This document shows, piece by piece, positions 3,201 to 39,671 of a stretch of 50,087 nt of DNA. The stretch comes from Anaeromicrobium sp. Lineage in GTDB: Bacteria; Bacillota; Clostridia; Peptostreptococcales; Thermotaleaceae. Where the stretch lies: NCBI RefSeq assembly GCF_025210435.1, contig NZ_JAOART010000056.1, forward strand, positions 1-50,087. Reading direction: 5' to 3'. The position numbers and the translations under genes were made by a program. Positions within the stretch are counted from its first letter, which is position 1, and each line of letters opens with the position of its first letter. A model generated the notes under the pieces. That model was not told where the DNA came from. It saw only the letters and a list, made by a program, of their open reading frames with translations, and did not search any database.

Positions 3201-3432
3201 TAGATTTCGTATTCATAAACTTGCTTTATGTGTGCCTATTTCAGGAAAATATATTGAAAATTTTTCCACCCAAGTCCTTGTCACAAGCGAAAGCGTGAAT
3301 CTTCGTAGATAGGTTCATGAGTCATGTTTAGGTAGCATAGAATGTTGTGACGTTCCAGGGTTTCAAAAATTTTCAATAGTTTCCCTTATAGGCAAGTTAC
3401 TGTATAAATAAATCTTAGAGTTACGAAATCTA
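3201..3432. repeat. Palindromic mobile-element-like repeat, copy 1
   Basis: A 232-bp element bounded by a perfect 11-bp terminal inverted repeat (TAGATTTCGTA / TACGAAATCTA). Nested inside are AACTTGC/GCAAGTT, an AT-rich pair around ATTGAAAAT/ATTTTCAAT, ACCC/GGGT and GTCACAA/TTGTGAC, so the whole element can fold into one long hairpin with a complex apex. It is clearly homologous to 7193-7398 and 38877-39115. It occupies most of the 405-bp gap between murA and spoIID, and no ORF is seen in it. Confidence 0.9.
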
Positions 3433-3463
3433 TAAGGAATATCTAATCTAAAAGGAGGTACTT

Positions 3464-4450
3464 ATGAAAAAAATAATAGGATTAACCATATGGATTTTTA
3501 TTGTAATAATCATAATTCCAGCCATACTAATACAAAGTTGCGACATAGGAGAAAATACTATAAAAAAAGAAAAGATTATTAAAGAGGATATAGAATATGT
3601 ATACGTGTACAGAACTAAAAAAGATAAGATAGAAAAAATAGAAATAGAAGAATATCTAAAGGGCGTAGTATCATCAGAAATGCCAGCTAGCTTTGAAATG
3701 GAGGCCTTAAAGGCTCAAGCTATTGCTGCTAGAAGCTATGCTGTATCCCGAGTTAAAGCCTATGGGGGAAAGGGAAACCCAGGACATAAGGGTAGTGAAC
3801 TTTGTGATGACGTCCATTGTCAAGTATATAGGGATGAATCTGAGCTTAGGCATATAAAACCAAAAGATTGGATGAGGGATTATTATCCTAGAATTAAAGA
3901 GGCTGTAGAAAAAACAAAAGGTCTCATAATGACTTATGAAGAAAAACCCATATCTCAACCCCTATTCCATTCTACTAGCGGTGGTAAAACAGAGAACTCA
4001 GAAGATGTATTTACTAGTGCAGTCCCCTATTTAAGAAGTGTAGAAAGTCCCTATGAAAATGAAGCTCCCCATTATACTGACGAATATGTTCTAAGACCTA
4101 GTGAATTTGTATCTAAAATGAAAAAGAAATATAGGGATATTACTTTGAATTCAACAAATATTAAATCACAGATAAAAATTCTCCAAAGAAGTGAAGGCGG
4201 AAGAATATTAAAGATAAAAATAGGGAATAAAGTATTAAGAGGTAGAGATGTGAGAAGTGTCCTAGGTTTGAGATCTGCTAATTTTAGTATAAGATATGGT
4301 GGAGGAGATATAATATTTAATACGGTAGGATACGGACATGGAGTTGGCATGAGTCAATGGGGAGCCAATGGTATGGCCAAGGAAGGATATAAGTATGATG
4401 AAATATTAAAGCATTATTATATAGGTGTAGACATAATGAAAATGAAATAG
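3464..4450 (+). CDS. spoIID: Stage II sporulation protein D, lytic transglycosylase
   Basis: SpoIID is the mother-cell murein lytic transglycosylase that drives septal thinning and engulfment together with SpoIIM and SpoIIP. The 328-residue protein has one N-terminal membrane segment (residues about 5-24) and an extracytoplasmic catalytic domain. The probable catalytic glutamate is E72 in VVSSEMP, followed by the family signature LKAQAIAARSYA. H108, C114, H118 and C119 (HKGSELCDDVHCQ) form the zinc-site pattern of clostridial SpoIID. FHSTSGGKTENS and YGHGVGMSQWGANGMA are the conserved C-terminal blocks. The start is ATG with AAAGGAGG 5 bases upstream. In the family the gene is SigE dependent. 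I could not find a convincing SigE promoter; copy 1 of the palindromic repeat fills the upstream region. Confidence 0.95.
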   Translation: MKKIIGLTIWIFIVIIIIPAILIQSCDIGENTIKKEKIIKEDIEYVYVYRTKKDKIEKIEIEEYLKGVVSSEMPASFEMEALKAQAIAARSYAVSRVKAYGGKGNPGHKGSELCDDVHCQVYRDESELRHIKPKDWMRDYYPRIKEAVEKTKGLIMTYEEKPISQPLFHSTSGGKTENSEDVFTSAVPYLRSVESPYENEAPHYTDEYVLRPSEFVSKMKKKYRDITLNSTNIKSQIKILQRSEGGRILKIKIGNKVLRGRDVRSVLGLRSANFSIRYGGGDIIFNTVGYGHGVGMSQWGANGMAKEGYKYDEILKHYYIGVDIMKMK

Positions 4451-4475
4451 ATATGAAAAAAATTAGCATCTCCAT

Positions 4476-4504
4476 GTATTAATTTGTCCACTCTGGCAAA
4501 ACTA
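4476..4504 (+). promoter_or_regulatory. Candidate SigF-type promoter of spoIIQ
   Basis: GTATT (4476-4480) and GGCAAAACTA (4495-4504) match the forespore SigF pattern, -35 GYATA and -10 GG-N2-A-N-A-H-T-R. The -10 matches at every fixed base. The spacer is 14 (usually 15). In B. subtilis spoIIQ is transcribed by SigF. The predicted leader is very short, running almost directly into the ribosome binding site at 4511. Confidence 0.5.
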
Positions 4505-4522
4505 CATAATGGAGGTGTTTTT

Positions 4523-5320
4523 ATGAAAAACAAAAACAGTATTTATAAATTATTAGAGAAGAAATCCTTCTATATTGCCTTATTTTTAGGTGTTTTCATA
4601 TTAGCCACAAGTGCTGTATGGGTTAATAAAAATAAGGTAGAAGATGACAAAATAGGGGAAGATTACTTTAATAATGGAAATGTGGCACAGAATGGAGAAG
4701 ATATAGACGAACCTATAATCTTTATAGAAGACCAAATGGAAGAATTAAGGGCTGAGATGAAAGAACAACGTCAAGTTCCAAAGAAAGTTCATAAAACTAA
4801 AGATCCAACAAAAACATTAGTGTCAAGAAAAACTAGGACCATTAAAAAAGATGAAGAAGTTCCCGTATTAAAAATAGATGAGACAGAGGCAGTTCCTTCA
4901 TCTACTTTGGCTAATATGAATATGATAAAACCCTTAGAGGGAACTGTGGGTATGAACTATGCAGAGGATACACTTACATATTCAAAGACATTAGATCAAT
5001 ACACTACCCATAAGGGAATTGACATAGAAGCAGAATTAAATACTCCTGTAGTTTCTGTTCTTGATGGAGAAATAATAGAAGTAATAACAGATTCAAGACT
5101 AGGAATTACCATATCCATAGCCCATGCAAATGGATTGATTACTAAATATGCAAATTTAAGCACCACAGAAATGGTAAGTGTGGGAGATGTGGTAGAACAA
5201 GGTCAAACCATAAGTGGAGTGGGGAAAACTGCTTTATTCGAAATAAGTGAAAAGCCCCATTTACATTTTGAAGTACTATTAGATGGAAAAAATGTAGACC
5301 CAGAAAAATTCATGAAATAA
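4523..5320 (+). CDS. spoIIQ: SpoIIQ-like M23 family peptidase
   Basis: The 265-residue forespore membrane protein has an N-terminal transmembrane segment (residues about 17-34), a charged linker to about 130, and a C-terminal LytM/M23 domain. SpoIIQ binds SpoIIIAH across the engulfing septum and anchors the channel between forespore and mother cell. The metal ligands of M23 endopeptidases are present here: H163 and D167 in THKGIDIEA, and H246/H248 in PHLHFEV. Clostridial SpoIIQ usually keeps these, while the Bacillus protein has lost part of the site. I chose ATG at 4523 because GGAGGTG (4511-4517) precedes it. A longer reading from TTG at 4484 would add 13 residues translated from promoter and RBS sequence. 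Position after spoIID supports the call. Confidence 0.9.
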   Translation: MKNKNSIYKLLEKKSFYIALFLGVFILATSAVWVNKNKVEDDKIGEDYFNNGNVAQNGEDIDEPIIFIEDQMEELRAEMKEQRQVPKKVHKTKDPTKTLVSRKTRTIKKDEEVPVLKIDETEAVPSSTLANMNMIKPLEGTVGMNYAEDTLTYSKTLDQYTTHKGIDIEAELNTPVVSVLDGEIIEVITDSRLGITISIAHANGLITKYANLSTTEMVSVGDVVEQGQTISGVGKTALFEISEKPHLHFEVLLDGKNVDPEKFMK

Positions 5321-5324
5321 ATAA

Positions 5325-5354
5325 TAAAAAAACAGGGCGCTCACCCTGTTTTTT
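5325..5354. terminator. Bidirectional rho-independent terminator
   Basis: AACAGGG and CCCTGTT pair across CGCTCA, with an A-run on the left (5326-5332) and a T-run on the right (5349-5354). This arrangement can end the spoIIQ transcript on the plus strand and the convergent spoIIID transcript on the minus strand. Confidence 0.9.
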
Positions 5355-5393
5355 CTCATCTTATAATAATATGTGTACAATGTTACGAGATCA

Positions 5394-5450
5394 GGGTTAA
5401 GGTTGTAGTTATAAAATATCTTAACGCTAAACTCTAAACTCTTAACTAAG
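5394..5450. repeat. Heptad-phased repeat between convergent genes
   Basis: The left part has G-rich 7-mers (GGGTTAA, GGTTGTA, GTTATAA; 5394-5414). The right part has four 7-mers beginning AAC (AACGCTA, AACTCTA, AACTCTT, AACTAAG; 5423-5450). The layout matches the other heptad loci, but this one is not followed by a ribosome binding site on either strand. The rest of 5321-5526 holds only the terminator. Confidence 0.65.
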
Positions 5451-5526
5451 GGTTTCTATTAACTATGAGTAGAGAAAAATTTATTCTCTGGATAATCAAA
5501 AATTTCATAGTGTCTATCTGTATATA

Positions 5527-5775
5527 TTATGAGCTTCTGTATTTCATTCGAGTCGCTTTACCACCTCTAATATGTCTTTCGGCTTTATTTTTATCAAGTA
5601 TTATCTTAACTTGATTTGCAACACGAGGGTTTATCTTAGGAAGACGTTCTGTAACATCCTTATGAACTGTACTTTTGCTTACACCAAATACTCTTGCAGT
5701 TTGCCTAACTGTTGCTTTTTCATTTATAATATATTTAGCTATTTCTATTGCTCTTTCTTCTATATAATCTTTCAA
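5527..5775 (-). CDS. spoIIID: Sporulation transcription factor SpoIIID
   Basis: The 82-residue DNA-binding regulator of the mother-cell SigE regulon aligns along its whole length with B. subtilis SpoIIID. The helix-turn-helix is residues about 22-42 (VRQTARVFGVSKSTVHKDV), followed by ERLPKINP and the basic tail RHIRGGKATRMKY. The start is TTG: the minus strand reads AAAAGGGGGG, 9 bases, then TTG AAA GAT TAT, which aligns with the known N-terminus MHDYI. In Bacillus and in C. difficile spoIIID is collinear with mreB/mbl. Here it faces the other way, convergent with spoIIQ and divergent from mbl, so it must have its own promoter in 5776-6117. The neighbours keep their usual order, which suggests a single-gene inversion. 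Confidence 0.96.
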   Translation of the reverse strand: MKDYIEERAIEIAKYIINEKATVRQTARVFGVSKSTVHKDVTERLPKINPRVANQVKIILDKNKAERHIRGGKATRMKYRSS

Positions 5776-6117
5776 TTGAAATTACCCCCCTTTTGATACA
5801 TCCCTTGATAAATCATATGCAGAACTATATGGTAGTAGAACTTAAAATTAAAGGTACAAAAGGATATCTATTCCCTAGTTTATAAGGGTTAATAATAGGT
5901 TATGAATTACTAAATATGAAAATATATTGACTAAAAACTAGAGAATAGACACAATAAGTTTACAAAAAAGTAAAAATGCTAAATTAAATAAAGGATTTAT
6001 AAAGGTTATATAGAATAGATAGGATGGTAGAAAAAAATTTAATTGTAAAAATATATAGATAAATGTAGAATTGTAGGATTTTATGATTATATACGATTAT
6101 AAGGAAAGGAGTATATT
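5776..6117. other. Divergent intergenic region between spoIIID and mbl
   Basis: There is no gene in this 342-bp stretch. It should hold promoters for both flanking genes. On the plus strand TTGACT (5927-5932), 17 bases and CACAAT (5950-5955) make a moderate SigA-like candidate. It is overlapped by a long-range inverted repeat, CTATTCCCTAGTTT (5868-5881) against AAACTAGAGAATAG (5935-5948), with one mismatch. On the minus strand CATATAGT (5831-5824) resembles a SigE -10 element, but no good -35 precedes it. Confidence 0.4.
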
Positions 6118-7149
6118 ATGTTTGGATTAGGTATGGAAGTGGGTATAGATTTAGGAACAGCCAGTGTATTAGTTTTTATAAAGGGAAAAGGAATAGTTTT
6201 ACAAGAACCATCAGTAGTAGCTATAGATAAAAATACAAATCAACTATTGGCAGTTGGTGAAGAAGCTAGAAGAATGTTAGGTAGAACACCAGGCAATATT
6301 GTGGCTACAAGGCCCCTTAGAGATGGTGTCATATCAGACTATGAAGTAACGGAAAGAATGCTTAGATACTTTATTCAAAAAACTTGTGGTAAAAGAAGAT
6401 TTTTTAAACCAAAGATAATAGTATGTGTTCCTAGTGGTGTAACAGAGGTGGAAAAAAGAGCAGCCATTGAAGCGACAACAGAAGCAGGTGGAGGAATTGC
6501 CCACATAATAGAAGAACCAATTGCAGCAGCCATTGGTGCTGGAATAGATATAACGAAGCCCGATGGAAACATGGTAGTGGATATTGGCGGAGGTACGGCA
6601 GATATTGCAGTGATTTCTTTAGGAGGAGTAGTTGCTAGCAAATCCATAAAAGTAGCTGGAGATACTTTTGATGAACATATAGTTAAATATATGAGAAAGA
6701 AGCACAATTTACTAATTGGAGAAAGGACAGCAGAAGCCCTAAAAAAAGAAATAGGTTGTGCATATCCCAAAAAACAATTATCGAAAATGGAGTGTAGGGG
6801 ACGTGATCTTATTTCTGGTCTACCAAAGACCATAGCTACTAACTCGGAAGAAATGCTAGAAGCCCTAGAAGAACCAGTGATTTTAATAGCAGAGGCAGTC
6901 CATGCGGTACTAGAAAGAACTCCACCGGAGCTGGCAGCTGATATTAGTGATAGGGGAATTGTAATGACAGGTGGAGGTTCATTACTAGATGGTTTAAATA
7001 GGCTTATAGAAGAGAGAACGGGAATACCAACCTATATAGCAGAAGATGCAGTAACATGTGTAGCTAAGGGTACGGGTATAGCATTAGAGTCTTTCCATGT
7101 GTTAGAAAAGAGTATGATGAGTTCTAGGAGTTTTAGAAAAAATAGATAG
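6118..7149 (+). CDS. mbl: MreB family actin-like protein (Mbl)
   Basis: The 343-residue bacterial actin forms membrane-bound filaments that guide the peptidoglycan elongation machinery. Actin-fold signatures are visible: phosphate-1 near residues 9-18 (GIDLGTASVLVF), VDIGGGTADIAVIS near 150-163, and the adenosine motif GIVMTGGGSLLDGL near 280. The N-terminal MFGLGMEVGIDLGT is typical. Three paralogues exist in Firmicutes (MreB, Mbl, MreBH). The neighbourhood (spoIIID, flhO, flhP) identifies this one with mbl, and there is no mreC or mreD here. The start is ATG with AAAGGAG about 8 bases upstream. A terminator follows, so it may be monocistronic. Confidence 0.92.
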   Translation: MFGLGMEVGIDLGTASVLVFIKGKGIVLQEPSVVAIDKNTNQLLAVGEEARRMLGRTPGNIVATRPLRDGVISDYEVTERMLRYFIQKTCGKRRFFKPKIIVCVPSGVTEVEKRAAIEATTEAGGGIAHIIEEPIAAAIGAGIDITKPDGNMVVDIGGGTADIAVISLGGVVASKSIKVAGDTFDEHIVKYMRKKHNLLIGERTAEALKKEIGCAYPKKQLSKMECRGRDLISGLPKTIATNSEEMLEALEEPVILIAEAVHAVLERTPPELAADISDRGIVMTGGGSLLDGLNRLIEERTGIPTYIAEDAVTCVAKGTGIALESFHVLEKSMMSSRSFRKNR

Positions 7150-7156
7150 ATATGGA

Positions 7157-7188
7157 GGCAGGTACTTAGGTAGCTGTCTTTTGTTTTT
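7157..7188 (+). terminator. Probable terminator after mbl
   Basis: GGCAGGTAC and GTAGCTGTC pair with one wobble and one mismatch across TTAG, followed by TTTTGTTTTT. It lies 8 bases after the mbl stop codon. Confidence 0.6.
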
Positions 7189-7192
7189 ATTA

Positions 7193-7398
7193 TATAGATT
7201 TCTGGTGTATAAACTTGCTTTATGTGGGCCTATTTCAGGAAACCATTGAAAATCTTTTCCACCCAAGTCCTTGTCACAAGCGAAAGTGTGAATCTTTGTA
7301 TATAGGTTCATGTGTCATGTTGGAGTAGCATAGGATGTTGTGACGTTCCAGGGTTCCAAAGATTTTCAATCGTTTCCCTTATAGGCAAGTTACTGTAT
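7193..7398. repeat. Palindromic mobile-element-like repeat, copy 2 (right end lost)
   Basis: The left terminus TATAGATTTCT is the same as in copy 3. The body is homologous to copies 1 and 3 up to GCAAGTTACTGTAT, after which the terminal AGAAATCTATA is missing. The inner stem GGAAAC-c-ATTGAAAATCTTT pairs with its right-hand partner with only a C/C mismatch. With the following bases it fills most of the 430-bp gap before flhO. Confidence 0.88.
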
Positions 7399-7465
7399 GG
7401 TTAAAACTTTGGAAGGATAAGTTTATGATGGAAGCAGGTGACAGATTATGGAGTAAAAGTTTTTC

Positions 7466-7492
7466 TAAAGTTTTTGTTTTTTTTGTCGATAT
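7466..7492 (+). promoter_or_regulatory. SigD (FliA-type) flagellar promoter
   Basis: TAAA (7466-7469), 15 bases, GTCGATAT (7485-7492). The known SigD/sigma-28 pattern is TAAA-N15-GCCGATAT, so 11 of 12 positions match with exact spacing. In B. subtilis the flhO-flhP operon is SigD dependent, and this site lies about 90 bases upstream of the flhO homologue. Confidence 0.85.
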
Positions 7493-7513
7493 AATGAGTT
7501 AGAGAGATATACG

Positions 7514-7562
7514 GTGGAGAGATAGCAGTTACCAGTGACCTGTCACCAGTAACCTGTCACCA
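7514..7562. repeat. Heptad-phased repeat (GTNACCW units)
   Basis: Seven 7-mers in phase: GTGGAGA and GATAGCA, then five of the form GTNACCW (GTTACCA, GTGACCT, GTCACCA, GTAACCT, GTCACCA). It ends 7 bases before the GGAGG of flhO. GATAGCA is also a unit of the left arm at 8656. It lies in the leader made by the SigD promoter. Confidence 0.8.
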
Positions 7563-7580
7563 TACTTACGGAGGTTGAAC

Positions 7581-8651
7581 ATGTTAAGAGGACTGTATGC
7601 AGCTACAACGGGAATGAGTGTGAATACAAAAAAGTTAGATGTAATAACTAATAATATAGCTAATATGAATACGGCAGGTTATAAGAAGGATTTGGTTATA
7701 ACGGAAAGTTTTCCAGAAGTTTTAATAAGTAAGCAGGTGGATCCTAGGGAAGCCCTTGAAAGTCCAAGTAAGGGAATAGAAGTAAAAAAAGTTGGAAATG
7801 GATATGAACTAAAAACAGATAGTGGATATTTTAGAACAAAATATGATAATATGACTAGTCACGAAAGAACTTTAAAGCTTACTGTTAACGAAGATGGATA
7901 TTTAAGTACCTTTGATATGAACTCAAGTGGAAGTATAAACACTAATGGAGGTCATTTAATATTAGGAAGTAAGGGTCCTGTATTTGTAGGCCAAGGATCC
8001 TTTGAAATAAGAGAAAATGGACAAGTAATAGTGGATGGAAATCCAGTTGATAATTTGGTAATACCTACACCACCTGGAGTTATAGGGACGTTAAACTCAG
8101 GGGTTAAGATAAATAAAATAGCAACTAATTTTTTACAAGGGAACATGCAAAATACAGAAAGTGATTTAGATATGGCCATAGAAGGAGATGGATTTTTTCA
8201 AATACAAACTCCAGAAGGCATAAGGTATACGAGGGACGGAAGTTTTAAGTTGAATGATAATAAGGAATTAGTGACTCAAGATGGATACCATGTATTGGGA
8301 GAATATGGCATAATTCAGATAGATGCGGAAAAAATAGGTGTAAACGAAAAGGGAGAAATACTTTTAGATAATGAGTATTGGGATACTTTAAAGATTGTAG
8401 ATATTGAAAATAAAAAGGATTTAAGAAAATTAGGGTATAGTATGTACAAGATGGAAGATAGAGTAGAACCTATAGAAAAATCATTTAATGGGAAAGTTCT
8501 ACAAGGATTCCTAGAAGGATCTAACGTAAATCCTATTAAGGAAATGTCTAAAATGATTAGTTTGTACAGAAATTATGAAACTAATCAAAAAATAGTAAAG
8601 GCCTATGATGATACATTAGGCAAAACAGTAAATGAAGTAGGAAAGGTGTAA
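7581..8651 (+). CDS. flhO: Flagellar hook-basal body protein, FlgF/FlhO type
   Basis: This is an axial rod protein of the flagellar basal body, exported by the flagellar type III apparatus. The N-terminal rod domain reads MLRGLYAATTGM then LDVITNNIANMNTAGYKK. The central domain has the family segment DMAIEGDGFFQI, and the C-terminus (about residues 310-350, LEGSNVNPIKEMSKMI ... YETNQKIVKAYD) has the flg_bbr_C pattern. It is about 85 residues longer than B. subtilis FlhO, mainly in a Gly/Asn-rich section around residues 50-170. The start is ATG at 7581, with GGAGG (7570-7574) at 6-base spacing; an in-frame TTG at 7575 touches the RBS. It is first gene of the SigD-driven rod operon. Confidence 0.9.
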   Translation: MLRGLYAATTGMSVNTKKLDVITNNIANMNTAGYKKDLVITESFPEVLISKQVDPREALESPSKGIEVKKVGNGYELKTDSGYFRTKYDNMTSHERTLKLTVNEDGYLSTFDMNSSGSINTNGGHLILGSKGPVFVGQGSFEIRENGQVIVDGNPVDNLVIPTPPGVIGTLNSGVKINKIATNFLQGNMQNTESDLDMAIEGDGFFQIQTPEGIRYTRDGSFKLNDNKELVTQDGYHVLGEYGIIQIDAEKIGVNEKGEILLDNEYWDTLKIVDIENKKDLRKLGYSMYKMEDRVEPIEKSFNGKVLQGFLEGSNVNPIKEMSKMISLYRNYETNQKIVKAYDDTLGKTVNEVGKV

Positions 8652-8655
8652 AATA

Positions 8656-8821
8656 GTTAGCAGTAGGCGGTTGGCGGATAGCAGTAAAAAAAAACAACTT
8701 GACAACCCATAACAAAAAGATCAAAATCGTAACAGCTAACAGCTAACAGCTAACAGCTAACAGCTAACAGCTAACAGCTAACAGCTAACAGCTAACAGCT
8801 AACAGCTAACAGCTAACAAAA
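8656..8821. repeat. Heptad hairpin repeat with perfect (AACAGCT)12 right arm
   Basis: The left arm (8656-8690) has 7-mers of the type GTTAGCA, GTAGGCG, GTTGGCG, GATAGCA and GTAAAAA. A 40-bp spacer includes TTGACA (8699-8704) and CAAAAT 17 bases later, a possible promoter. The right arm (8731-8814) is twelve perfect AACAGCT copies, followed by AACAAAA and the flgG ribosome binding site. Left arm and spacer are closely related to 11061-11130. GTTAGC in the left arm can pair with GCTAAC in any right-arm unit. Confidence 0.93.
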
Positions 8822-8837
8822 AAAGGAGGAATTTTTC

Positions 8838-9629
8838 ATGCGTTCACTTTGGACAGCAGCATCGGGAATGAAAGCACAACAGCTTAATATAGATACCATA
8901 TCTAATAACTTGGCCAATGTAGGAACTACAGGATATAAAAAACAAAGAACTGAATTTAAGGATTTATTCTATGAAAAACTATCTAAGAGTAATGCGGACG
9001 AAAGTGGTGGAAAGCCAGTTAATTTAGAAGTGGGTCATGGTGTAATGCCTATAGCCACTGCTAGAAGTTTTGCTAAGGGAAACTTAGAACAAACGAACAA
9101 TGAGTTAGATGTGGCCATAGATGGTGATGGTTTTTTTGAAGTAAGGGATGCTAATGATAATTTATTTTATACAAGGGATGGTAGTTTTAAGATAAGTGTA
9201 ACAGATGGAGAAGCAAGATTAGTCACTTCTGATGGATATTTTGTTCAAAGTGATGGTGGTGATATAGAACTTGGAGAAGATTTTGAAAGTATCAATGTAT
9301 CAGGATCAGGAACAATATCTGTAAAAAGAAAAGGTGAAGATGATGCAGAAGAATTAGGTCTATTAAAGATAGTTACCTTTGCTAATAGACAAGGACTTGA
9401 AGCTAAAGGGTCCAACCTATATGGAATAAGCGCCGTATCAGGAGAGCCAGTGGAAGCAGAAGAAGGTGAAGGTGGCAATATAAAACAAGGATTCATAGAG
9501 ACATCTAACGTTCAAATAGTAGAAGAAATGGTAAAAATGATTATGGCCCAACGTGCCTACGAAATAAACTCAAAATCCATACAAACGGCAGACCAAATGT
9601 TAGAACAAGCAAATAATTTGAGAAGATAA
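8838..9629 (+). CDS. flgG: Flagellar distal rod protein FlgG (FlhP)
   Basis: The 263-residue distal rod protein matches the normal FlgG length. It begins with MRSLWTAASGMKAQQLNID followed by SNNLANVGTTGYKK, the conserved N-terminal rod motif. The middle has VAIDGDGFFEV and FYTRDGSFKI, and the end has IKQGFIETSNVQIVEEMV plus MIMAQRAYEINSK, the classic C-terminal signature. N- and C-terminal heptad segments form the coiled-coil core of the rod. The start is ATG with AAAGGAGG 10 bases upstream. It is second in the flhO-flgG operon. The spacer in front contains the 166-bp heptad repeat, so translation is unlikely to be coupled to flhO. Confidence 0.96.
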   Translation: MRSLWTAASGMKAQQLNIDTISNNLANVGTTGYKKQRTEFKDLFYEKLSKSNADESGGKPVNLEVGHGVMPIATARSFAKGNLEQTNNELDVAIDGDGFFEVRDANDNLFYTRDGSFKISVTDGEARLVTSDGYFVQSDGGDIELGEDFESINVSGSGTISVKRKGEDDAEELGLLKIVTFANRQGLEAKGSNLYGISAVSGEPVEAEEGEGGNIKQGFIETSNVQIVEEMVKMIMAQRAYEINSKSIQTADQMLEQANNLRR

Positions 9630-9633
9630 AGTA

Positions 9634-9736: not shown

Positions 9737-10102
9737 GTGAGTAATTACAAGGAATTAATAGTATGGAATGTAGCTCATAAACTTGTGTTAAATTTATACA
9801 AAGAGAGTGTTGTATTTCCTAAAGAAGAAAGATATGGCTATACCAGTCAATTAAGAAGAGCAGCAGTGTCAATTCCTAATAATATAGCAGAAGGGCAAGG
9901 TAGATCAAATAACAAAGAGTTTATAAATTTTATAAGAATTGCAAAAGGTTCTGCTACAGAAGTGGAATATTTAATATTATTAGGTAGAGACTTAGGTTAT
10001 ATAAACAATGATAAATATACGTACTACAATAATGAAATAATTAAAATATTAAGGATGCTAAATAATTTAATAAAATCATTGAGAAAACTTGAAAATTTAT
10101 GA
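9737..10102 (+). CDS. Four-helix-bundle protein, 23S rRNA IVS (S23) / bAvd-like family
   Basis: The 121-residue protein has the family pattern YKELIVWNVAHKLV (helix 1), then YGYTSQLRRAAVSIPNNIAEG and GRSNNKEFINFIRIAKGSATEVEYLI, ending in two more helices. Relatives were first noted as ORFs in intervening sequences of bacterial 23S rRNA and resemble Avd of diversity-generating retroelements. They form positively charged pentamers that bind nucleic acid, but a role for stand-alone copies is not established. The start is GTG at 9737 after TAGGAGTGG. It sits alone between two flagellar rod genes, inside the interval between the left (9634-9668) and right (10121-10162) arms of a heptad repeat. This suggests an insertion. 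It is not a flagellar gene by family. Confidence 0.9.
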   Translation: MSNYKELIVWNVAHKLVLNLYKESVVFPKEERYGYTSQLRRAAVSIPNNIAEGQGRSNNKEFINFIRIAKGSATEVEYLILLGRDLGYINNDKYTYYNNEIIKILRMLNNLIKSLRKLENL

Positions 10103-32084: not shown

Positions 32085-33512
32085 ATGGAATATGTAAGAA
32101 AAAAACTAGAAAAAATAAATTCTATTGAATTATTTAAACATGGGAAGTTCTATTTGATAGGCAATATATTGTCAAAAGGATTATTATTTTTGACAATGCC
32201 AATATATATAAGGATATTACCTTCACCAAGTGAATATGGATTATTAAATATTTATAGTTCAGTAGTAAATATGTTAGTTATAATACTTGGCTTAAATGTA
32301 CATGCTGCTTTATTAAGATATTATCATGAGAAAGATGGTCAGTTCAGTTGGTTTTGCAGTAGCATAGTAAAGTCTTTACTTATTTTTGATGTTCTAATTC
32401 TTTTTATAATAAATAGATATAAGAACGTATTTTCAATATATTTAAATATAGATTCCAATATATTGATAGTGATTGTAATAGTAACGATATTGCAAATATA
32501 TTTAAATATGTATTTGACATATTTAAAGGCAAGCAAACAAAGTAATAGTTTCTTAAAATTATCTGTATTATCTAACCTATTTATAATATTATTATCAATA
32601 GTAATAATGTTATTTTTAAAGGAAAAAAAATATCTAGGGGAAATATACTCGAAAGTTCTAATTAACTTTATAGTTATACTTTTTCTAGCCATCAAATTTG
32701 TAAAGATTTATAAGAATAAAAAATTAAACTTTAACCATATAAAATATGTATTATTATATAGTGCACCATTAATACCGCACTCGTTATCTAACTATTTGTT
32801 AGCTCATGCAGATAAGATATTAATAAATAAGTATGTGGGAAGCTATGAGACCGGAATATATTCATTAGCTTATAACATAGGAATGATAATGAATGTAATA
32901 GTTATATCACTAAATAACGCATGGGTCCCAATATTTTTTGAGAAATTACGCGAAGAAAAATATTCTGAGATAGAGTTAGTGGCAAAGAAGTATACAAGTT
33001 TTATATTTATAGCTGCATCTTTTCTGATTGTATTTTCAAAAGAACTGATAGGTTTTATAGCCAAAAGAGATTACTATGAAGGAGTATATATGATACCTAT
33101 AGTTATAATAGGTTATGTATTTGTATTTTTATATACGATATATACAAATTACGCTTTTTACTATAAAAAAACTATCTTAATATCAATGAATACTATTATT
33201 GCAGGGATTATAAATATAGCATTAAACTGTATATTTATACCAAAAGCAGGATATATTGCAGCTGCATATACTACACTATTTTCTTATGTAATATTATTTA
33301 TACTGCATTATTTTAATTCTAAATATTTAATAAAAGCTAGAGTGGTAAGCATTAAAATTTTTATGAAACCAATTATAGGTATATTTTTTACGATGTTAGT
33401 CTTTTATTTTACCAATATATATATAATTAATTACTTAGTAGGTGTATTGATTAAATTAGTTATTATAACAGTGATAGTAAGTATCATCTTAAAAATGAAT
33501 AGAAAAGGATGA
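32085..33512 (+). CDS. Wzx-type polysaccharide flippase
   Basis: The 475-residue protein has about twelve to fourteen membrane helices and belongs to the MOP/Wzx group that moves undecaprenyl-linked repeat units across the membrane. The N-terminal LFKHGKFYLIGNILSKGLLF and MPIYIRILPSPSEYGLLNIY are typical of polysaccharide biosynthesis proteins. YSAPLIPHSLSNYLLAHADK and the following ILINKYVGSYETGIYSLAYN mark the second half of the inverted repeat fold. It is the only flippase gene seen in the window, which suggests that it serves the whole locus. The start is ATG; the best upstream purine stretch is GAAAGG. Confidence 0.9.
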   Translation: MEYVRKKLEKINSIELFKHGKFYLIGNILSKGLLFLTMPIYIRILPSPSEYGLLNIYSSVVNMLVIILGLNVHAALLRYYHEKDGQFSWFCSSIVKSLLIFDVLILFIINRYKNVFSIYLNIDSNILIVIVIVTILQIYLNMYLTYLKASKQSNSFLKLSVLSNLFIILLSIVIMLFLKEKKYLGEIYSKVLINFIVILFLAIKFVKIYKNKKLNFNHIKYVLLYSAPLIPHSLSNYLLAHADKILINKYVGSYETGIYSLAYNIGMIMNVIVISLNNAWVPIFFEKLREEKYSEIELVAKKYTSFIFIAASFLIVFSKELIGFIAKRDYYEGVYMIPIVIIGYVFVFLYTIYTNYAFYYKKTILISMNTIIAGIINIALNCIFIPKAGYIAAAYTTLFSYVILFILHYFNSKYLIKARVVSIKIFMKPIIGIFFTMLVFYFTNIYIINYLVGVLIKLVIITVIVSIILKMNRKG

Positions 33513-33516
33513 AAAT

Positions 33517-34674
33517 ATGTATAATTCATTATTAAAATTAATTAAAATGATATTTAAGAATAAACATTATTTTGAGATAAGCAAAGAAATTCAGATGGAA
33601 TATCTTAATAAAATTTCAAAAAAATTAATAAGAGAAGATTTTGTTATGAGAAGTTTTTTGCAATATAAGTGCCAAACTTTTAAACAGCCGAGAATTAAAA
33701 TGTTTATACTAAATGTAGTATGTACACTAGCCATACTACCTACTATAATGGTTCTTTTTATTAGTTATAAGTACCATAAGAATAAATTAAATATATCAGA
33801 AAAAAAATATGAAAATATTGCAATTAACTTTGGATATTATGACAAAATCCCCAGTATGTTAGTTAAAAAATATAAGATAAAAGAAATGTATAAAAAATAT
33901 ATTTTGACATATGAAGATATAAGATTTTTATTTAAAAGAATTATAAGTAAGCATCCATTTAATGGATATTTTATAATGAAGAACATAATAAAAATTGCAT
34001 TGTACAGCTATAATGTTACGCTACAAAATCCTGAAGCTATTTTAGTAAATTGTGAGTATTCTTTTACTTCATCTATTTTAACACTATATTGCAATTTTAA
34101 AGGTATTAAACATATAAATTTCATGCATGGAGAAAAATTATTAATTGTTAGAGACTCTTTTGTAAAATTTGATGAATTTTATATATGGGATGAATACTAT
34201 AAAAATATATTTAAAAAACTAAAGGCTGATGAAAAACAGTTTATAGTAAATCTGCCTGAAAATTTAGAAAAATACAAGTGTGGAGAGTATTCAGAAACAA
34301 AAACTTTAACCTACTATTTACAAGGAGATGAAACTCACCAGCAACTAAACTTGATTAAAAATAAATTACAACAAATAAAAGATAGGAAGCATTTGAATAT
34401 AAGAATAAGACCTCATCCAAGATATGGAGATAGGAATGTAGTAAGTAAAGTTCTTAAAGATTTTAATATAGAGTATGATAAAAACATTATTGATTCATTA
34501 AAGGAAGCAGAATTTATAGTTTCTAAATATTCTACAGTCATATTCGAAGGGTATTTAATGAATAAAAAAATAGTTATTGATGATATAAGTAATAAAAAAT
34601 TTTATGGGAAGTTAAAAGATCTAGATTATATTATTTTAAACAAAAAACATATAAAGCTAAGTGAAGTGATTTGA
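33517..34674 (+). CDS. Unassigned GT-B-like protein, candidate nonulosonate transferase
   Basis: The 385-residue protein is not a clear member of a family I know. A hydrophobic stretch lies near residues 67-88. The second half has features shared by bacterial sialyltransferases and capsule transferases of the GT38/GT52/GT80 type: HGEKL near 205, a strand-loop IRIRPHPRYGD near 298 (His-Pro motif), and SKYSTVIFEGYLMNKK near 340 (Ser/Thr motif). These would bind CMP-sugar. No DxD motif of GT-A enzymes is visible. It stands between the flippase and polymerase genes, just after the CMP-nonulosonate pathway, which needs a transferase not seen elsewhere in the window. The function is an inference. 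ATG start, AAAGGATG just upstream. Confidence 0.5.
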   Translation: MYNSLLKLIKMIFKNKHYFEISKEIQMEYLNKISKKLIREDFVMRSFLQYKCQTFKQPRIKMFILNVVCTLAILPTIMVLFISYKYHKNKLNISEKKYENIAINFGYYDKIPSMLVKKYKIKEMYKKYILTYEDIRFLFKRIISKHPFNGYFIMKNIIKIALYSYNVTLQNPEAILVNCEYSFTSSILTLYCNFKGIKHINFMHGEKLLIVRDSFVKFDEFYIWDEYYKNIFKKLKADEKQFIVNLPENLEKYKCGEYSETKTLTYYLQGDETHQQLNLIKNKLQQIKDRKHLNIRIRPHPRYGDRNVVSKVLKDFNIEYDKNIIDSLKEAEFIVSKYSTVIFEGYLMNKKIVIDDISNKKFYGKLKDLDYIILNKKHIKLSEVI

Positions 34675-34676
34675 TT

Positions 34677-35816
34677 ATGAGAGCAGAATTATTGATATTT
34701 AATACAGTATTTTCAATATTGCTATATTTGTTTATAAAGTTTAAGGAATATAAAAGTTCATTAGTTCCGTTATATATTTTTTGGCTAGGAACGTTTTATA
34801 TACAAAACATTTATTATTATTATCTTAATGGACAAACTTATAGAATTTTTTCTGATAAAACATTGCTTATATTTATAAATATATCCACATTAGTTTTTAT
34901 GAACGCAATAATATTGTTAATATTAAAAAAAATTAAATGGTTTAAACATGTAAAAACTCGAATAAAATTCAGAAAAACCAAATTATTAAGTATATATTTT
35001 AATACAATAGCATTTGTTATAGTTATATATGCGCTAATATATATCAATAAATTTCCTTTAATTACACTGCTTAAAGGCAGTAACAATATTAGATTAGATA
35101 TATCAGGGGCAATACCTTATTATTTTACGGTTTCAACGTTTGCTTATTTTATATTACCAAGTTTTTATTTTTTTAGTGGTAAAAAAAGGTATTTAATTTT
35201 ATTTTTTTTGTTTGCAGTATTATCTTTACATAAAGGTATATTAGTGTATACAATTCTATTTATATGGATAAATTGTTTTGACTACAGACTAAACAAAGAA
35301 ATGGTAATGTCTGGGGTTTTAATAGCTCTATTCTATTTGATTGCTAAAGATAAGCTAGTCTTCAACATTGAAACTATAAAATATTTATTTGAATCTTCTA
35401 TTAGACGATTTTTTATAACTCAAGGTTCAGGGTTTATAGTAAGATTAGACATGTTAGAAAGCGGATTTAAATTTGTAGGAAAAGATATAAAAAGAGCAGT
35501 ATATGACAAAATATATGGAGGTGCTGGAGGAGCACCAACTTATTTTCTTGGAAACTTAATAGTAAGTTTTGGATATATAAAAGGTTTCATAATACACTCT
35601 AGTATATTAAGTTTAATTTATTATATATCTAGTATTATTGATTATAATTACAAGAAGAATAACGGTGTTAAGTGGATTTTCTTTAGTATAATATTTATTA
35701 TAGGAAATACAGAAATAACATTAGCTAATTTACCACGCGTAATAGCGATAATATTTAATTTCTTTATAATATTTATCTTAAATATAAATGCAAAATTGTT
35801 AAGAAGGAAAAACTAA
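34677..35816 (+). CDS. Wzy-like repeat-unit polymerase (membrane protein)
   Basis: The 379-residue integral membrane protein has about ten to twelve helices. A conserved-looking extracytoplasmic loop near residues 235-290 is rich in Arg and Gly (RRFFITQGSGFIVRLDMLES, YGGAGGAPTYFLGNL). This layout, and its place beside the flippase and transferase genes, fits an O-antigen/capsule polymerase of the oligosaccharide repeat unit polymerase group. Sequence of Wzy proteins is poorly conserved, so the call is from topology and context. I chose ATG at 34677, 2 bases after the previous stop; an in-frame TTG at 34671 would overlap it. Confidence 0.7.
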   Translation: MRAELLIFNTVFSILLYLFIKFKEYKSSLVPLYIFWLGTFYIQNIYYYYLNGQTYRIFSDKTLLIFINISTLVFMNAIILLILKKIKWFKHVKTRIKFRKTKLLSIYFNTIAFVIVIYALIYINKFPLITLLKGSNNIRLDISGAIPYYFTVSTFAYFILPSFYFFSGKKRYLILFFLFAVLSLHKGILVYTILFIWINCFDYRLNKEMVMSGVLIALFYLIAKDKLVFNIETIKYLFESSIRRFFITQGSGFIVRLDMLESGFKFVGKDIKRAVYDKIYGGAGGAPTYFLGNLIVSFGYIKGFIIHSSILSLIYYISSIIDYNYKKNNGVKWIFFSIIFIIGNTEITLANLPRVIAIIFNFFIIFILNINAKLLRRKN

Positions 35817-35970
35817 ATAAAACAAGTTATAGTAAATTAAGTTGCATAAATCATAATGGTTACATAAAAAGGGTGTTGATACTTAATGAAAAATTATTCA
35901 AGGTAAATTGAATATCATGCAAAGTAAATGGAACTTTTAAGATAAGGTCAATAATAGGAGGACGGTAAAG

Positions 35971-37290
35971 TTGAAAAAAACATGTATTAGTTTACTGATG
36001 ATTGTTATAATTAGAATGTTAATTCCACAAAGCCTTATCACTAAAAATGTTGATCAATTAGTAATATCAAAAGAAGGGGCTAGTAGAGCAACTGCTTATG
36101 TAGAAAGCAATAAAATATTGAGTTATAAAGACACTATATTTGTAACCTACTTAGAAAATGGAGATGATAATAAATTTAGAGTAATACTAGCAGAAATAAA
36201 AAAAAATCAAATTCAAAATAAGGTTTGTGTAGGATATTCGTTAACTAATCATGGAGGGGCGAGTATAAAGTTTGATAAAACCGGTAGGATATATATAGTT
36301 TATGGAGGACATATATCAGGTTTAAAAATAAGATATAGTAAAAAACCACTTGATATAAGTGATTTAAGCAAAGAAATTGACATAACTGAGGAAGGTACAG
36401 GCTTAACATATCCTTCTTTTGAGATAGATGATTACAATAATATGCACTTAATATGTAGAAAAATGAATTTAAATGAAAATTTAAGCCCATCAAAACCGAG
36501 TTTGAATTATTTTAAGATAGACATAGGGAATGGATTTAAAATATCATCAAATAAAGAATTAATAAGTTTTTCAGAATATAAATATGGGAATTTCACCTCT
36601 AGTATAGGGATAAAAGATAATGTAATAAGTATTATATATAGAATATATCTAAAAGACAATAATAAAGAACTTAATAAGACATCGTACGGATATATAAAAA
36701 GTGTAGATCTTGGACAAAATTTCGTGAATTATAAAGGTAAAAGAGTACAATTACCTATAACCTTTAATTCCAACTCAAATTTAGAGATATCAGAAAAAAT
36801 TTTGCCCTACATAAGTAATATTGCATATACATCATATGGGGAAATTAAGTTCATATTAACAGAATTAGACGAAAAAAGTGAAAATAGCTATGTTATAAGT
36901 ATTGATGACAAGATGTATAAAAAAGAAAGATTGAATAAGATATACAATTCATTAGACGAAAGAAAAATTAATGTTTATATAGGAATTTCTATAGATAGGG
37001 ATAATAATATATTTTTAGTTTTTTCGACTGTACCAAATACAAAAGATGAATTATGGGATAGTGGGAATAATAGAATAAGTTATTTTAAAATTAATAAAAA
37101 TGATGTTGATTTAATTTATAATAATATAAAAAGCGCAGAGAATATGTCTTGGCTTCCTAATATAGAGCAAAATAGGAATCATTTATCTAATAAAAATAAA
37201 CATATACCTATAATTATTTTTTCACAAGGGCAAACAACTAACGATTTATATAGAAAAGTAGATAGTAAAGTAATAATTATAGATTTTTAA
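35971..37290 (+). CDS. Secreted BNR-4-like beta-propeller protein
   Basis: The 439-residue protein begins with a signal peptide or anchor (residues about 4-20) and is otherwise soluble. It resembles the BNR repeat-containing (PF15892-like) seven-bladed propellers: GGASIKFDKTGRIYIVYGGH then ISGLKIRYSKKPLDISDL and EGTGLTYPSFEIDDYNNMHL are the most telling parts. Some propellers of this group are polysaccharide lyases or sialidase-like enzymes; others only bind. I cannot name a catalytic set. Its position among flippase, polymerase and GT genes suggests that it cuts, edits or binds the exported polymer outside the cell. The start is TTG with AGGAGG 9 bases upstream. The 154-bp gap in front holds nothing that I recognise. 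Confidence 0.65.
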   Translation: MKKTCISLLMIVIIRMLIPQSLITKNVDQLVISKEGASRATAYVESNKILSYKDTIFVTYLENGDDNKFRVILAEIKKNQIQNKVCVGYSLTNHGGASIKFDKTGRIYIVYGGHISGLKIRYSKKPLDISDLSKEIDITEEGTGLTYPSFEIDDYNNMHLICRKMNLNENLSPSKPSLNYFKIDIGNGFKISSNKELISFSEYKYGNFTSSIGIKDNVISIIYRIYLKDNNKELNKTSYGYIKSVDLGQNFVNYKGKRVQLPITFNSNSNLEISEKILPYISNIAYTSYGEIKFILTELDEKSENSYVISIDDKMYKKERLNKIYNSLDERKINVYIGISIDRDNNIFLVFSTVPNTKDELWDSGNNRISYFKINKNDVDLIYNNIKSAENMSWLPNIEQNRNHLSNKNKHIPIIIFSQGQTTNDLYRKVDSKVIIIDF

Positions 37291-37311
37291 AACATAAAAA
37301 GGGAGATAAAA

Positions 37312-38070
37312 ATGGATAACAGTAGTATTTTAATATCAATAATAACACCTGTATATAATTCAGAAAGGTTTCTAAAAAAAACTATTCAATATGTACAGAA
37401 ACAAACTTATACAAATTGGGAGATGATAGTAGTCGATGATTGTTCAATTGATAATTCTGAAAGAATAATTAGAGATATAATGGAGAAAGATCATAGAATA
37501 AAATACATTAAATTAGAAAAAAATTCAGGTGCTGCTATAGCACGAAATACGGCAATAGAAAAGGCTAAAGGAAGGTTTATAGCATTTTTGGATAGTGATG
37601 ACTTGTGGGAATACAATAAATTAGAAACACAGTTGAAATTCATGTTAGAAAATAATATAGCTTTTTCATTTACGTCATATTCTTTTATAGATGAAGATGG
37701 AAAAGAATTAAATAAGGTTGTAAGAGTACCTAAGAAGATTAATTATGAAGAACTATTAAAGAATACTATAATTCATTGTTTTACAGTTATGATAGATAAA
37801 GATAAAGTCGGAGATTTTAGAATGCCTCTAGTTAGAAAAGGGCAAGACTTTGCAACTTGGCTTTCAATATTGAAAAAAGGTTTTTATGCATATGGAATAA
37901 ATATACATTTGGGTAAATATAGGATAGTAAATAATTCTTTATCCAGTAATAAATTAAAGGCTTTAAAAAGAACTTGGAATATATATAGGAATGTTGAAAA
38001 ACTATCATTTATTAAATCTACTTATGTATTTATTTTTTATTGTATTAATGCTATTAGAAAAAGATTATAA
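37312..38070 (+). CDS. Glycosyltransferase family 2 (GT-A fold)
   Basis: The 252-residue inverting glycosyltransferase begins with ISIITPVYNSERFLKKTIQY. It has VVDDCSIDNS and the metal-binding FLDSDDLWE (DxD near residue 94). GQDFATWLSILKKG near residue 185 is the usual acceptor/base region (an ED/QD-type motif). It resembles EpsJ/WfgS-type capsule glycosyltransferases. It is about normal in length, so it was not cut by the insertion element that follows. The start is ATG with AGGGAG upstream. Donor unknown. Confidence 0.92.
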   Translation: MDNSSILISIITPVYNSERFLKKTIQYVQKQTYTNWEMIVVDDCSIDNSERIIRDIMEKDHRIKYIKLEKNSGAAIARNTAIEKAKGRFIAFLDSDDLWEYNKLETQLKFMLENNIAFSFTSYSFIDEDGKELNKVVRVPKKINYEELLKNTIIHCFTVMIDKDKVGDFRMPLVRKGQDFATWLSILKKGFYAYGINIHLGKYRIVNNSLSSNKLKALKRTWNIYRNVEKLSFIKSTYVFIFYCINAIRKRL

Positions 38071-38189
38071 ATATACAGAGGTGAAGTCTGAAATATAGGA
38101 TAAAAGTTATAACTAAATAAAAGAGCATGGTAAACAAGCCATCTAATGATGACTTTCTTAAAATTATGTTAAGTAAATTTTAAAAAATA

Positions 38190-39671
38190 TTATACAATAT
38201 TAGTTTTGATTGAATAACCATATCGTTTAACTAGCAAAATCGCCTGATCTACCGTGATTTCACGGCTTACTGGAATATCAGATTTCTTATACAGATCAGC
38301 ATTATAAGGTTCCTTTTTCTTAAGGATATGATAGATGGCTGTTAAAAGCATTCGGGAAATTGCAATGATTGCACGTTTGTGACCACGACGCTTTTTGAGT
38401 TTTAAATAGCGGTTACGGATTTGAGGATGCTTTTCGCTTTTAACCACAGCAGTTGCACACTGAACAAGAAGTGGTTTAATGTAGCAACCAGCTTTTGAAA
38501 TCCTTACTGAGTTCTTCTTGCCGGCACTTTCGTTATTAGTAGGTGTAAGTCCTGCCCAAGAACACAAATGCTTAGCTGTCGGGAACACGTCCATGTTAAC
38601 GCCTATTTCTGAAATCACTGTAATGGCGGAAAAGATGTTTTTAAAGGACGGAACAGTTAAGATTAAATTGATTTCTTCGGAGTAGGACTCGGCAAGAGAA
38701 AGAATAATTTTTTCGAGGTCAGTTTTACGAAATTGAAGATCTTCATAGTGCTGTTTAATAACCTTTAATTTTTGAGCTTGCTGTGGTGTAATAAAACCGT
38801 CAATGGCTAGTTCTAGTTCAGGAAGTTTATTTTTCATAGAACCGTGAATTAAAGGTTCGATGTCAAAGGAAGTATCTATAGATTTCTGGTGTATAAACTT
38901 GCTTTATGCGGGCCTATTTCAGGAAAATATATTGAAAATCTTTTCCATTGAAGTCCTTGTCACAAGCGAAAGTGTGAATCTTCGGATATAGGTTCATGTG
39001 TCATGTTGGAGTAGCATAGGATGTTGTGACGTTCCTCAATTCCAAAGATTTTCAATATATTTTCCCTTATAGGCAAGTTACTGCATAAAACAAATTTAAA
39101 ATCAAGAAATCTATAAAGGATTATCCAAAAGCTTGTCAATGATTTTCATGGAGCTTTTGCCAAAGGTATCGGAAACAACACTACCAAGCTGGATATTAGA
39201 CACAGTTAAAGAGTTTTGAAGACGATTTTTCTCACTTGACATAAAGTTTGTAAGTTTAAACCTATAACGCATTAGGTCACGAAGCTGTCTTATAGCAAGT
39301 GGAGGCATAAAACTTCCAGCTACAAGGTCATGTTTAAATAAATTGGCAATCCATTTGGCATCTTTTTTATCAGTCTTTTTGCCACGGATAGCCTTAACAT
39401 ATTTAGGATGGGCAAGAGTAATGTTGCAGGAATCTTCAAGTACGTTAAACACAGGAATCCGGTATTTGCCGGTAGATTCCATACACACATCCTTACAGTT
39501 GTTTTCACAAAGCCACTGTGACAGCTGTCTCAACCCATTGGTATAGATAGAAAAGCGATGGCGTTTGTAAGTAGTAACTCCCTTGTTGTTGGTAGAAGCA
39601 ATGCAAGCAACAACAAAGGTTTTGTGGACATCAATGCCACAACAGATTTGATAGACAATTTTTAAAGCCAT
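38190..39671 (-). pseudogene. IS110-family transposase split by a palindromic repeat
   Basis: On the minus strand the gene starts at ATG 39671 (GAAAGGAG upstream). It encodes the DEDD RuvC-like half: D in CCGIDVHKTFVV, E in CMESTGKYRIPV, D/D in KKTDKKDAKWIA. At 39116 the reading frame runs into the repeat (38877-39115) and stops at once. Beyond the repeat the frame resumes with DTSFDIEPLIHGSMKNKLP and continues to 38190, giving the C-terminal Tnp_20 part (VISEIGVNMDVFPTAKHLCS, SWAGLTPTNNESAGKK). Without 240 bp the joined protein would be about 413 residues, normal for IS110. It is therefore a recently intact gene, now interrupted. A start at 39752 in the same frame has no RBS. Confidence 0.9.
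38877..39115. repeat. Palindromic mobile-element-like repeat, copy 3, inside IS110 transposase
   Basis: A 239-bp element bounded by perfect 11-bp terminal inverted repeats (TATAGATTTCT / AGAAATCTATA). A 22-bp perfect inner stem runs from GGAAAATATATTG on to AAAATCTTT, with its full partner on the right. It is homologous to 3201-3432 and 7193-7398. The flanks give no obvious long target duplication. Removing 38877-39116 restores the transposase frame, which fixes its edges within a base or two. Confidence 0.93.

Follow-up and report, generated by a model that had tools for sequence, protein, structure and literature searches.

A palindromic IS630-type miniature element with a covarying core and a leading-strand bias in Anaeromicrobium sp.

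A palindromic element present in three copies in a 50,087-nucleotide stretch of Anaeromicrobium sp. DNA (from contig NZ_JAOART010000056.1, hereafter the window) is a non-autonomous miniature inverted-repeat transposable element (MITE) of the IS630/Tc1-mariner type. This identity follows from its TA flanks, its insertion in an IS110 transposase gene, an end in common with a resident IS630 and the presence of more than 200 copies in the genome. We consider it probable that the element is moved in trans and carries a selected interior fold, probably read as plus-strand RNA. While MITEs are often taken as defective ends around filler, the interior of this one keeps four helices in several subfamilies and three genomes. 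The original prediction, made from the letters of the window, described three palindromes with compensatory stem changes; the observation stands and its interpretation is partly supported, and the orientation bias and mosaic structure reported below are additions to it.

The element unit and its insertion at TA

The element unit reads TAGATTTC...GAAATCTA, has inverted ends (TAGATTT...AAATCTA) and measures 232 bp (copy 1) or 235 bp (copy 3). All three palindromes were read at the predicted positions, with inverted repeats detected in 3/3. The termini described as common to the copies are so in copies 1 and 3; the right terminus of copy 2 is decayed past approximately position 7398, with homology extending to approximately 7424. 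Copy 1 is preceded by TG, probably an altered TA, and followed by TA at 3433-3434. More generally, TA flanks both sides in 78 of the 90 full copies that have flanks. A set of 41 aligned copies has unrelated flanks and ends that are recognisable in nearly all, the decayed ones being the left end of copy L012, the right end of copy L059 and the right end of copy 2.

Copy 3 sits within an IS110 transposase gene and splits it (Table 1). Both IS110 parts represent the target gene and lie outside the element proper, and the open reading frame (ORF) of the N-terminal part, as called, starts inside the edge of copy 3. An uninterrupted IS110 paralogue is present in the window's genome (locus L091, contig C57), with 77% and 82% identity on the two sides, the latter for the N-terminal part. 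Relative to this paralogue, the copy 3 locus contains 237 extra bases by manual count on the alignment, corresponding to the 235-bp element plus one TA. The alignment fits insertion of copy 3 with TA duplication, a reading that leans also on other copies; the paralogue differs at the insertion site itself.

The window's genome (G000; 3.96 Mb in 148 contigs, with sampled stretches at 29-34% GC) provided 96 full copies from 1.18 Mb, which are the full copies referred to throughout. The element is short and has no transposase gene, its longest ORFs measuring 23-46 amino acids (every eighth value among the 96 copies) and lying most often in minus frame 0 (50/96). The alternative of a family of regulatory or small RNA genes, repeated by other means, would agree with the structured, conserved core and with the location of the copies, none of which lies within a called ORF (0/95 in the first 812 kb of the genome). 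It does not account for the defined ends and TA flanks, and is largely refuted by the end shared with IS630 and by the split IS110 gene, so that we regard it as very improbable.

The IS630 partner

The original prediction had suggested looking for a transposase with the same ends. Such ends are carried by IS630-family fragments, identifying the element as an IS630-type MITE. The PF13358 domain matches three places in the genome (best 8.3e-21), and the best of these proteins used as a query (152 amino acids) finds five places, all within a few bases of contig ends. The pieces represent the C-terminal half of the transposase and match NF033545 (IS630 family transposase) at 5.7e-25, below the whole-protein cut-off. 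Each of the five closes with the inverted end AAATCTATA, which contains the stop codon, its reading frame terminating within the inverted end ACATAAAACAARGTYTTTACCANNAAATCTATA. A pattern for this IS end has six matches in the genome, namely the five IS pieces and one element copy, L204, which is truncated by the end of contig C21. The opening 33 bases of L204 are identical to the IS end (33/33) and lead into the usual element body. The left end of 85 of the 96 full copies shares 23-26 of 33 bases with the IS end; at left-end positions 10-33, a mean of 15.7 of 24 bases match, vs 7.5 for shuffled ends. At contigs C39 and C42 (L141, L142), IS630 ends directly adjoin element copies.

Certain observations count against this partnership. 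With the N-terminus of a relative from genome G009 as the query, the assembly yielded neither an IS630 body nor an IS630 N-terminus, and the left end of the partner is unseen, the autonomous element being reconstructed from its right half. Moreover, the IS630 query has no match in a second genome of the same genus (G001), despite the old element copies there. 

Beyond these points, the third PF13358 place (contig C107, with an internal stop) is unmatched by the 152-residue query and has no such inverted end beside its transposase piece. As regards derivation of the interior from the IS by deletion, which is not required of every MITE, what the family profile yields on the locus with the 152-codon C-terminal piece (L132) is confined to an end match of 43 bases (E 0.23) and a faint reverse one.

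Covariation of the interior fold

From the outside inward, the element consists of near-inverted ends of approximately 35 bp, the helices P1 to P4, and an apex of approximately 60 bases. P1 pairs GCCTAT with ATAGGC, P2 comprises approximately 22 pairs (left side GGAAAATATATTGAAAATCTTT in copy 3), P3 pairs ACCC with GGGT or ATTGA with TCAAT, and P4 pairs TTGTCACAA with TTGTGACG. The apex contains a possible fifth helix, P5 (GTGAATC/GGTTCAT), and the conserved GCATAGGATG.

Covariation was evaluated on 43 distinct cores from the window's genome, the same-genus genome and a same-family genome (G015). To build this set, the 33 of 40 rows that exceed 200 letters were used, one with an N was dropped, 12 of 14 chosen copies from the window's genome were added, giving 44, and L118, a copy that carries a deletion, was removed. 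A 48-pair structure has 86.6% of its cells paired, compared with 76.7% in shuffles, and two-sided changes at 28 of 48 pairs, compared with 17.5. The two-sided cells number 202 vs 62.6±7.7 in shuffles. None of 500 shuffles reached these three values, and structures slid along the alignment give at most 39 two-sided cells; the number of further pair types was reached by 2 of 500 shuffles. RNAalifold, run without a supplied structure, predicts 22 pairs, 12 of them with two-sided changes.

One alternative is a plain MITE in which matched arms were inherited from a few ancestral palindromes, so that covariation and orientation would call for no present function, the orientation of the copies mirroring the coding bias. 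Kinship among the rows can alone inflate the excess over shuffles, as the counting tool itself warns, even where there is no structure. However, P4 has taken three paired forms in old subfamilies (GTCAC/GTGAC, ATGAC/GTCAT and ATCAG/CTGAT) with the loops largely unchanged: AAGTC, GTGAAT, GCATAGGATG and GTTCC are mostly retained across subfamilies. In the 43 cores, 90.4% of the P4 cells are paired, and across the 96 full copies the 8 pairs of P4 contain 2 changed cells. P3 also exists in several paired forms and is paired in 71.3% of cells, its fifth pair being mostly unpaired (37/43). For the apex helix, pairing of 65-71 with 83-89 (P5) reaches 78.0%, while an alternative pairing of 65-71 with 89-95 was rejected at 40.5%.

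A second alternative, which we consider quite unlikely, is correction of one arm against the other, with the palindrome templating its own arms by template switching or hairpin repair and thereby generating paired changes even where the fold is not selected. In its favor are derivatives, around L109:9069-9142 and L105:10272-10323, with one arm that is a reverse copy of the other. Such correction should erase mismatches and internal loops, yet an internal T.G mismatch at 49/125 is constant in 40 of the 43 cores and in all 96 full copies, and the unpaired AAGTC, GTTCC and GCATAGGATG are largely kept. Because constant mismatches persist, simple arm correction is disfavored.

Private changes, which are rare in the 16 P4 sites (2) and lacking in GTTCC among the 96 full copies, favor a selected fold. 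Other observations count against it. Four of the seven P5 pairs fail in 13-16 of the 43 cores, which makes P5 a tentative helix for the old subfamilies. Per site, private changes are as frequent in the apex (0.48) as in the arms (0.40-0.43), and the two sides of P1 are unequal (0 in 10 sites vs 7 in 9). The depletion of private changes is thus confined to P4 and GTTCC, where the numbers are small.

The original prediction knew of no named RNA with this apex, and Rfam bears this out: at the gathering threshold in the window, it returns only group II intron parts, none in the element, and at E<=1 on five copy-bearing loci (Rfam 15) only two weak matches, neither of them in the element. A known RNA family was therefore set aside. 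Of the two results named beforehand as fatal to the original prediction, weak covariation and a match to a described element, neither came about in these tests.

Mosaic copies and linked partner sites

The 96 full copies are all distinct and have a mean of 31 differing positions, mostly shared alleles. Mean linkage between sites (r2) is 0.030 at 26-60 nt and 0.059 at 61-120 nt, and four gametes are found in 904 of 946 site pairs. The low r2 and the prevalence of four gametes show that the copies recombine.

Much of the strongest remaining long-range linkage joins facing sites. Of 559 long-range pairs of sites, separated by 60 nt or more, the six highest-ranking connect the two sides of P3, with r2 of 0.38-0.48 for the partners 72/163, 73/162 and 74/161. 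Partners 41/193 (r2 0.38, rank 10) and 64/171 (0.26, rank 17) follow, together with a two-base indel at 51-52/179-180 (0.19-0.21, ranks 19-24). All listed partner sites and the indel fall within the top 26 of the 559 pairs, on a list of partners drawn up after the allele-combination counts were seen. Inheritance from ancestral palindromes alone should not link partners 90-150 nt apart when r2 drops to 0.030 at 26-60 nt, which argues against the plain MITE, a reading we regard as unlikely. Selection on the fold is likely, because recombination erodes most linkage but less of it between partners. Arm-to-arm correction would also produce linkage of paired sites; mismatches such as C/A at 64/171, present in 23 of the 96 copies, are nevertheless common. 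One further pattern does not follow from the fold: the non-partner sites 12 and 15 in the outer left end rank 7 and 12 with site 123 in the apex, and sites 12-15 reach r2 up to 0.44 with site 123 (ranks 7, 12, 18 and 20, site 11 included).

The compensatory alleles quoted in the original prediction are associated statistically, and the association is not absolute, as matched and mismatched combinations both occur among the 96 full copies. Matched P3 allele pairs are ACCC/AGGG (68 copies), ATTG/TCAA (10) and ATTG/ACAA (4), and the others are ACCC/TCAA (6), ATTG/AGGG (2) and six rarer cases; site pair 64/171 is matched in 70 copies and mismatched in 26. Within the window itself, one quoted compensation fails, since GGAAAATATATTG faces CAATAGTTTCC in copy 1 as a mismatch. 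The proposal that the fold is under constraint gains strong covariation in the type of test suggested for it, a count of compensatory changes over many copies with controls; RNA selection, selection of a DNA hairpin and arm correction are competing causes.

Strand and molecule

The core mildly supports an RNA read from the plus strand. The pair 49/125 is UG, UA or CG in 43/43 cores, and the pair 70/84 is UG or UA in 42/43. This core signature favors the plus strand, because the common UG pairs exist only there. In agreement with this, the isolated core is predicted to fold better as plus-strand RNA in 23 of 24 copies, and the full copy in 19 of 24. Copy 3 with its flanks (38870-39125) folds at -83.4 kcal/mol as plus-strand RNA (z -8.4), with none of 200 shuffles as good.

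Other measurements point away from plus-strand RNA. The minus-strand RNA of the same segment reaches -84.5 kcal/mol, again unmatched in 200 shuffles, and has the better z (-10.7). In P1-P4 without the constant pair, A.C exceeds G.U on the plus strand, both in the 43 cores (43 vs 17) and in the window's genome (69 vs 34). The wobble pattern of the arms does not look like selection for plus-strand RNA, though many of these cells are inherited or recombinant.

The lack of a plus-strand RNA wobble preference in the arms agrees with another alternative, in which the selected form would be a DNA hairpin on the lagging-strand template (the plus strand of leading copies), needed for transposition or tolerated in one direction only, with insertion or survival coupled to replication. 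Against it, G.U occurs on the plus strand at the core pairs 49/125 and 70/84, and TA-duplicating DDE transposition is not known to require a hairpin. We consider this alternative improbable, although orientation provides evidence on both sides of it.

Orientation relative to replication and genes

The element's leading-strand bias exceeds that of genes, and transcription and replication are not fully separable as its cause. The leading strand was assigned by local GC skew, with regions of |skew|<0.08 set aside, and matches below 130 bits were excluded from the main orientation tables (53 in the table that includes the same-genus genome). In 1.58 Mb of the window's genome, the 140 copies that score 130 bits or more comprise 117 leading, 12 lagging and 11 in weak skew, while genes of at least 150 amino acids in the same 1.58 Mb are 860 leading to 152 lagging (85% leading). 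A smaller sample gives 108:8 for elements vs 657:106 for genes. This excess over genes is difficult to reconcile with a plain MITE whose bias mirrors coding bias, a reading to which the 85% leading genes themselves lend weight.

Genomic context separates these accounts in part. Between convergent or divergent genes, where genes give no direction, copies are 16 leading to 1 lagging, which disfavors a pure gene-direction account and agrees with a DNA hairpin coupled to replication, as does the bias in the same-genus genome (18:3 among 21 matches, pieces included, with 12 of 17 stretches picked for matches). Between tandem lagging-strand genes, they are 3 leading to 4 lagging, which disfavors a pure replication account and thereby also the hairpin. 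GC skew is tied to gene direction, ORFs were called by a simple program, and few contexts run against the trend.

A general orientation bias is weakened not only by this 3:4 ratio but also by 400 kb sampled without regard to copies, where the ratio is 9 leading to 4 lagging, a result in favor of a plain MITE; most other stretches of this genome were picked for holding copies. Core-less derivatives, whose occurrence likewise suits a plain MITE, are 31:8 leading compared with 108:8 for full copies (Fisher p 0.03), some of the core-less pieces being cut by a stretch end; that pieces without the core lean the same way counts against the reading that we favor. Private changes per copy average 1.8 in lagging copies (5) and 2.5 in leading ones (82), numbers too small to conclude that lagging copies are younger.

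Proposed mechanism

In the reading that we favor, an IS630 transposase supplied in trans very likely works on the inverted ends and inserts the element at TA. The interior (P1-P4 and apex) would likely be a selected fold and not filler, and it may form in RNA when transcripts of neighboring genes read through the plus strand, a step toward which the evidence leans slightly. Copies in the opposite orientation or with a broken fold would then be lost more often or spread less, producing both the orientation bias and the partner linkage. Ectopic recombination would mix alleles among copies, and selection on the fold would hold partner alleles together. Candidate roles for the RNA include shielding neighboring genes from the insertion, guiding RNase processing and aiding amplification. 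RNase processing has been reported for Correia and ERIC elements in the accessible text of PMC10969869, PMC3049150 and PMC2229807.

A bolder version, which we put forward tentatively and consider doubtful, is that the element is a DNA-transposon derivative with its own selected structured RNA, kept by compensatory change despite recombination and inserted or retained in one orientation relative to the fork. It would amount to a mobile RNA gene on an IS630 system, whose RNA aids spread or host tolerance.

Comparison with known repeat families

The element is closest in kind to RUP of pneumococcus and, by the features tested, is an IS630-type MITE. In the accessible text of PMC2229807 and PMC3049150, RUP is described with IS630-Spn1 as a short intergenic element in 108 copies, with a TA target and ends like those of the resident IS630; a claimed preference of RUP for IS elements is unsupported in PMC3049150. 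RUP differs in length (107 bp vs 232-235 bp) and in orientation (60.9% leading vs 117/129 for the element; PMC3049150). According to the same text, leading-strand copies make up 60.8-63.3% of the pneumococcal BOX, RUP and SPRITE elements, which is said to mirror coding bias (PMC3049150), a precedent for the plain MITE. No conserved covarying core is described for RUP in these sources, unlike the core found here. RUP, ERIC and Correia elements were compared by description only.

ERIC elements of enterobacteria use a TA target. In the sources as accessible, they are palindromic intergenic MITEs like the present element, with an orientation-dependent effect on transcripts (PMC2229807), but belong to another phylum, measure 127 bp (PMC2759123) and are named there without an IS630 partner. 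Correia elements of Neisseria are likewise inverted-repeat MITEs with internal sequence, and their transcripts are cut by RNase III (PMC10969869, PMC3049150); their ends differ, being 26 bp (PMC3049150). Among the bcr repeats of the Bacillus cereus group, which are Firmicute intergenic repeats, some are MITE-like and some have a conserved fold and are transcribed, and the MITE-like bcr1-3 and the conserved-fold bcr10 and bcr18 are described as separate families (PMC3446304, accessible text). Here, in contrast, one element is both.

REP/RAYT and IS200/IS605 palindromes are also hairpin elements, and IS200/IS605 is linked to lagging-strand single-stranded DNA. Insertion of the IS605 type is not known to produce a target duplication, and IS200/IS605-type palindromes (PATE/REP) are not known to have inverted terminal repeats. 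The present element differs in having a TA duplication, TAGATTT inverted ends and an IS630 partner; a palindrome of the PATE/REP type was ruled out by the TA duplication and the inverted ends. A search of the literature found no description of the element, which does not prove that it is unpublished. What sets it apart is a transposable unit that joins a covarying core to a strong strand preference. With approximately 100 distinct full copies in one genome, it offers a natural experiment on selection for RNA or DNA shape and on orientation chosen by replication.

Copy number and distribution

A 17-mer of the core (with at most 2 mismatches) has 229 matches in the window's genome and none for the reversed pattern. 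Many contigs of this genome start or stop in or near the element (C1, C5, C12, C14, C59, C95 and others); the assembly seems to break at element copies, and the true number of copies is probably higher than counted. Among 298 genomes of the order, a covariance model with strict filters gave matches in 3, the window's genome counted. By DNA search, matches were present in 8 of 60 genomes, again counting that genome, with long ones only in G000, G001 and G015; the remaining matches, which are short arm pieces, may be chance matches. Plasmid and phage collections contain no match to the element, nor do viral contigs, which were searched by one exact pattern, and spread by phages or plasmids was set aside on the absence of matches in these collections.

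Internal-deletion derivatives without the core keep TAGATTT-like ends (L107:5726-5776, L119:12559-12618, L129:18848-18964 and others). In old subfamilies of the same-genus genome (L166, L168, L174, L175), some copies carry ends such as TATAGATAAAC (left) and TTTATCTATA (right).

Features of the window

The element copies, the parts of copy 3 and the interrupted target gene are listed in Table 1.

Table 1. Positions of the element copies, the parts of copy 3 and the interrupted IS110 gene in the window
Feature	Position	Strand	Evidence
Copy 1	3201..3432	+	254.6 bits vs family profile; sequence read directly
Copy 2	7195..7424	+	245.1 bits over 7193-7424; TA precedes clean left end
C-terminal part of interrupted IS110 transposase	38190..38837	-	Transposase_20 1.6e-16; NF033542 1.3e-30 (below whole-protein cut-off)
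TA, left target-site copy of copy 3	38877..38878		alignment vs uninterrupted paralogue L091
Copy 3	38879..39113	+	235 bp; TA on each side; within IS110 transposase gene; 254.0 bits
Left arm of copy 3: P1 (GCCTAT), P2 (GGAAAATATATTGAAAATCTTT), P3 (ATTGA)	38912..38951	+	inverted repeats, covariation
Core of copy 3: P4 (TTGTCACAA/TTGTGACG) and apex	38955..39032	+	covariation
Right arm of copy 3: P3', P2', P1'	39036..39074	+	inverted repeats, covariation
N-terminal part of interrupted IS110 transposase	39111..39752	-	DEDD_Tnp_IS110 4.8e-24; NF033542 4.1e-36 (below whole-protein cut-off)
TA, right target-site copy of copy 3	39114..39115		alignment vs uninterrupted paralogue L091

Elsewhere in the window, the regions 47331-48667 and 49034-49546 hold the group II intron parts found by Rfam, together with reverse transcriptase pieces at 47666-48175 and 48214-48519. 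An additional N-terminal piece of a reverse transcriptase occupies 49034-49546. On the plus strand, 9737-10102 encodes a four-helix-bundle protein (TIGR02436, 1e-36); its match to Avd, a family found in diversity-generating retroelements, is weak (4.2e-5) and below the cut-off.

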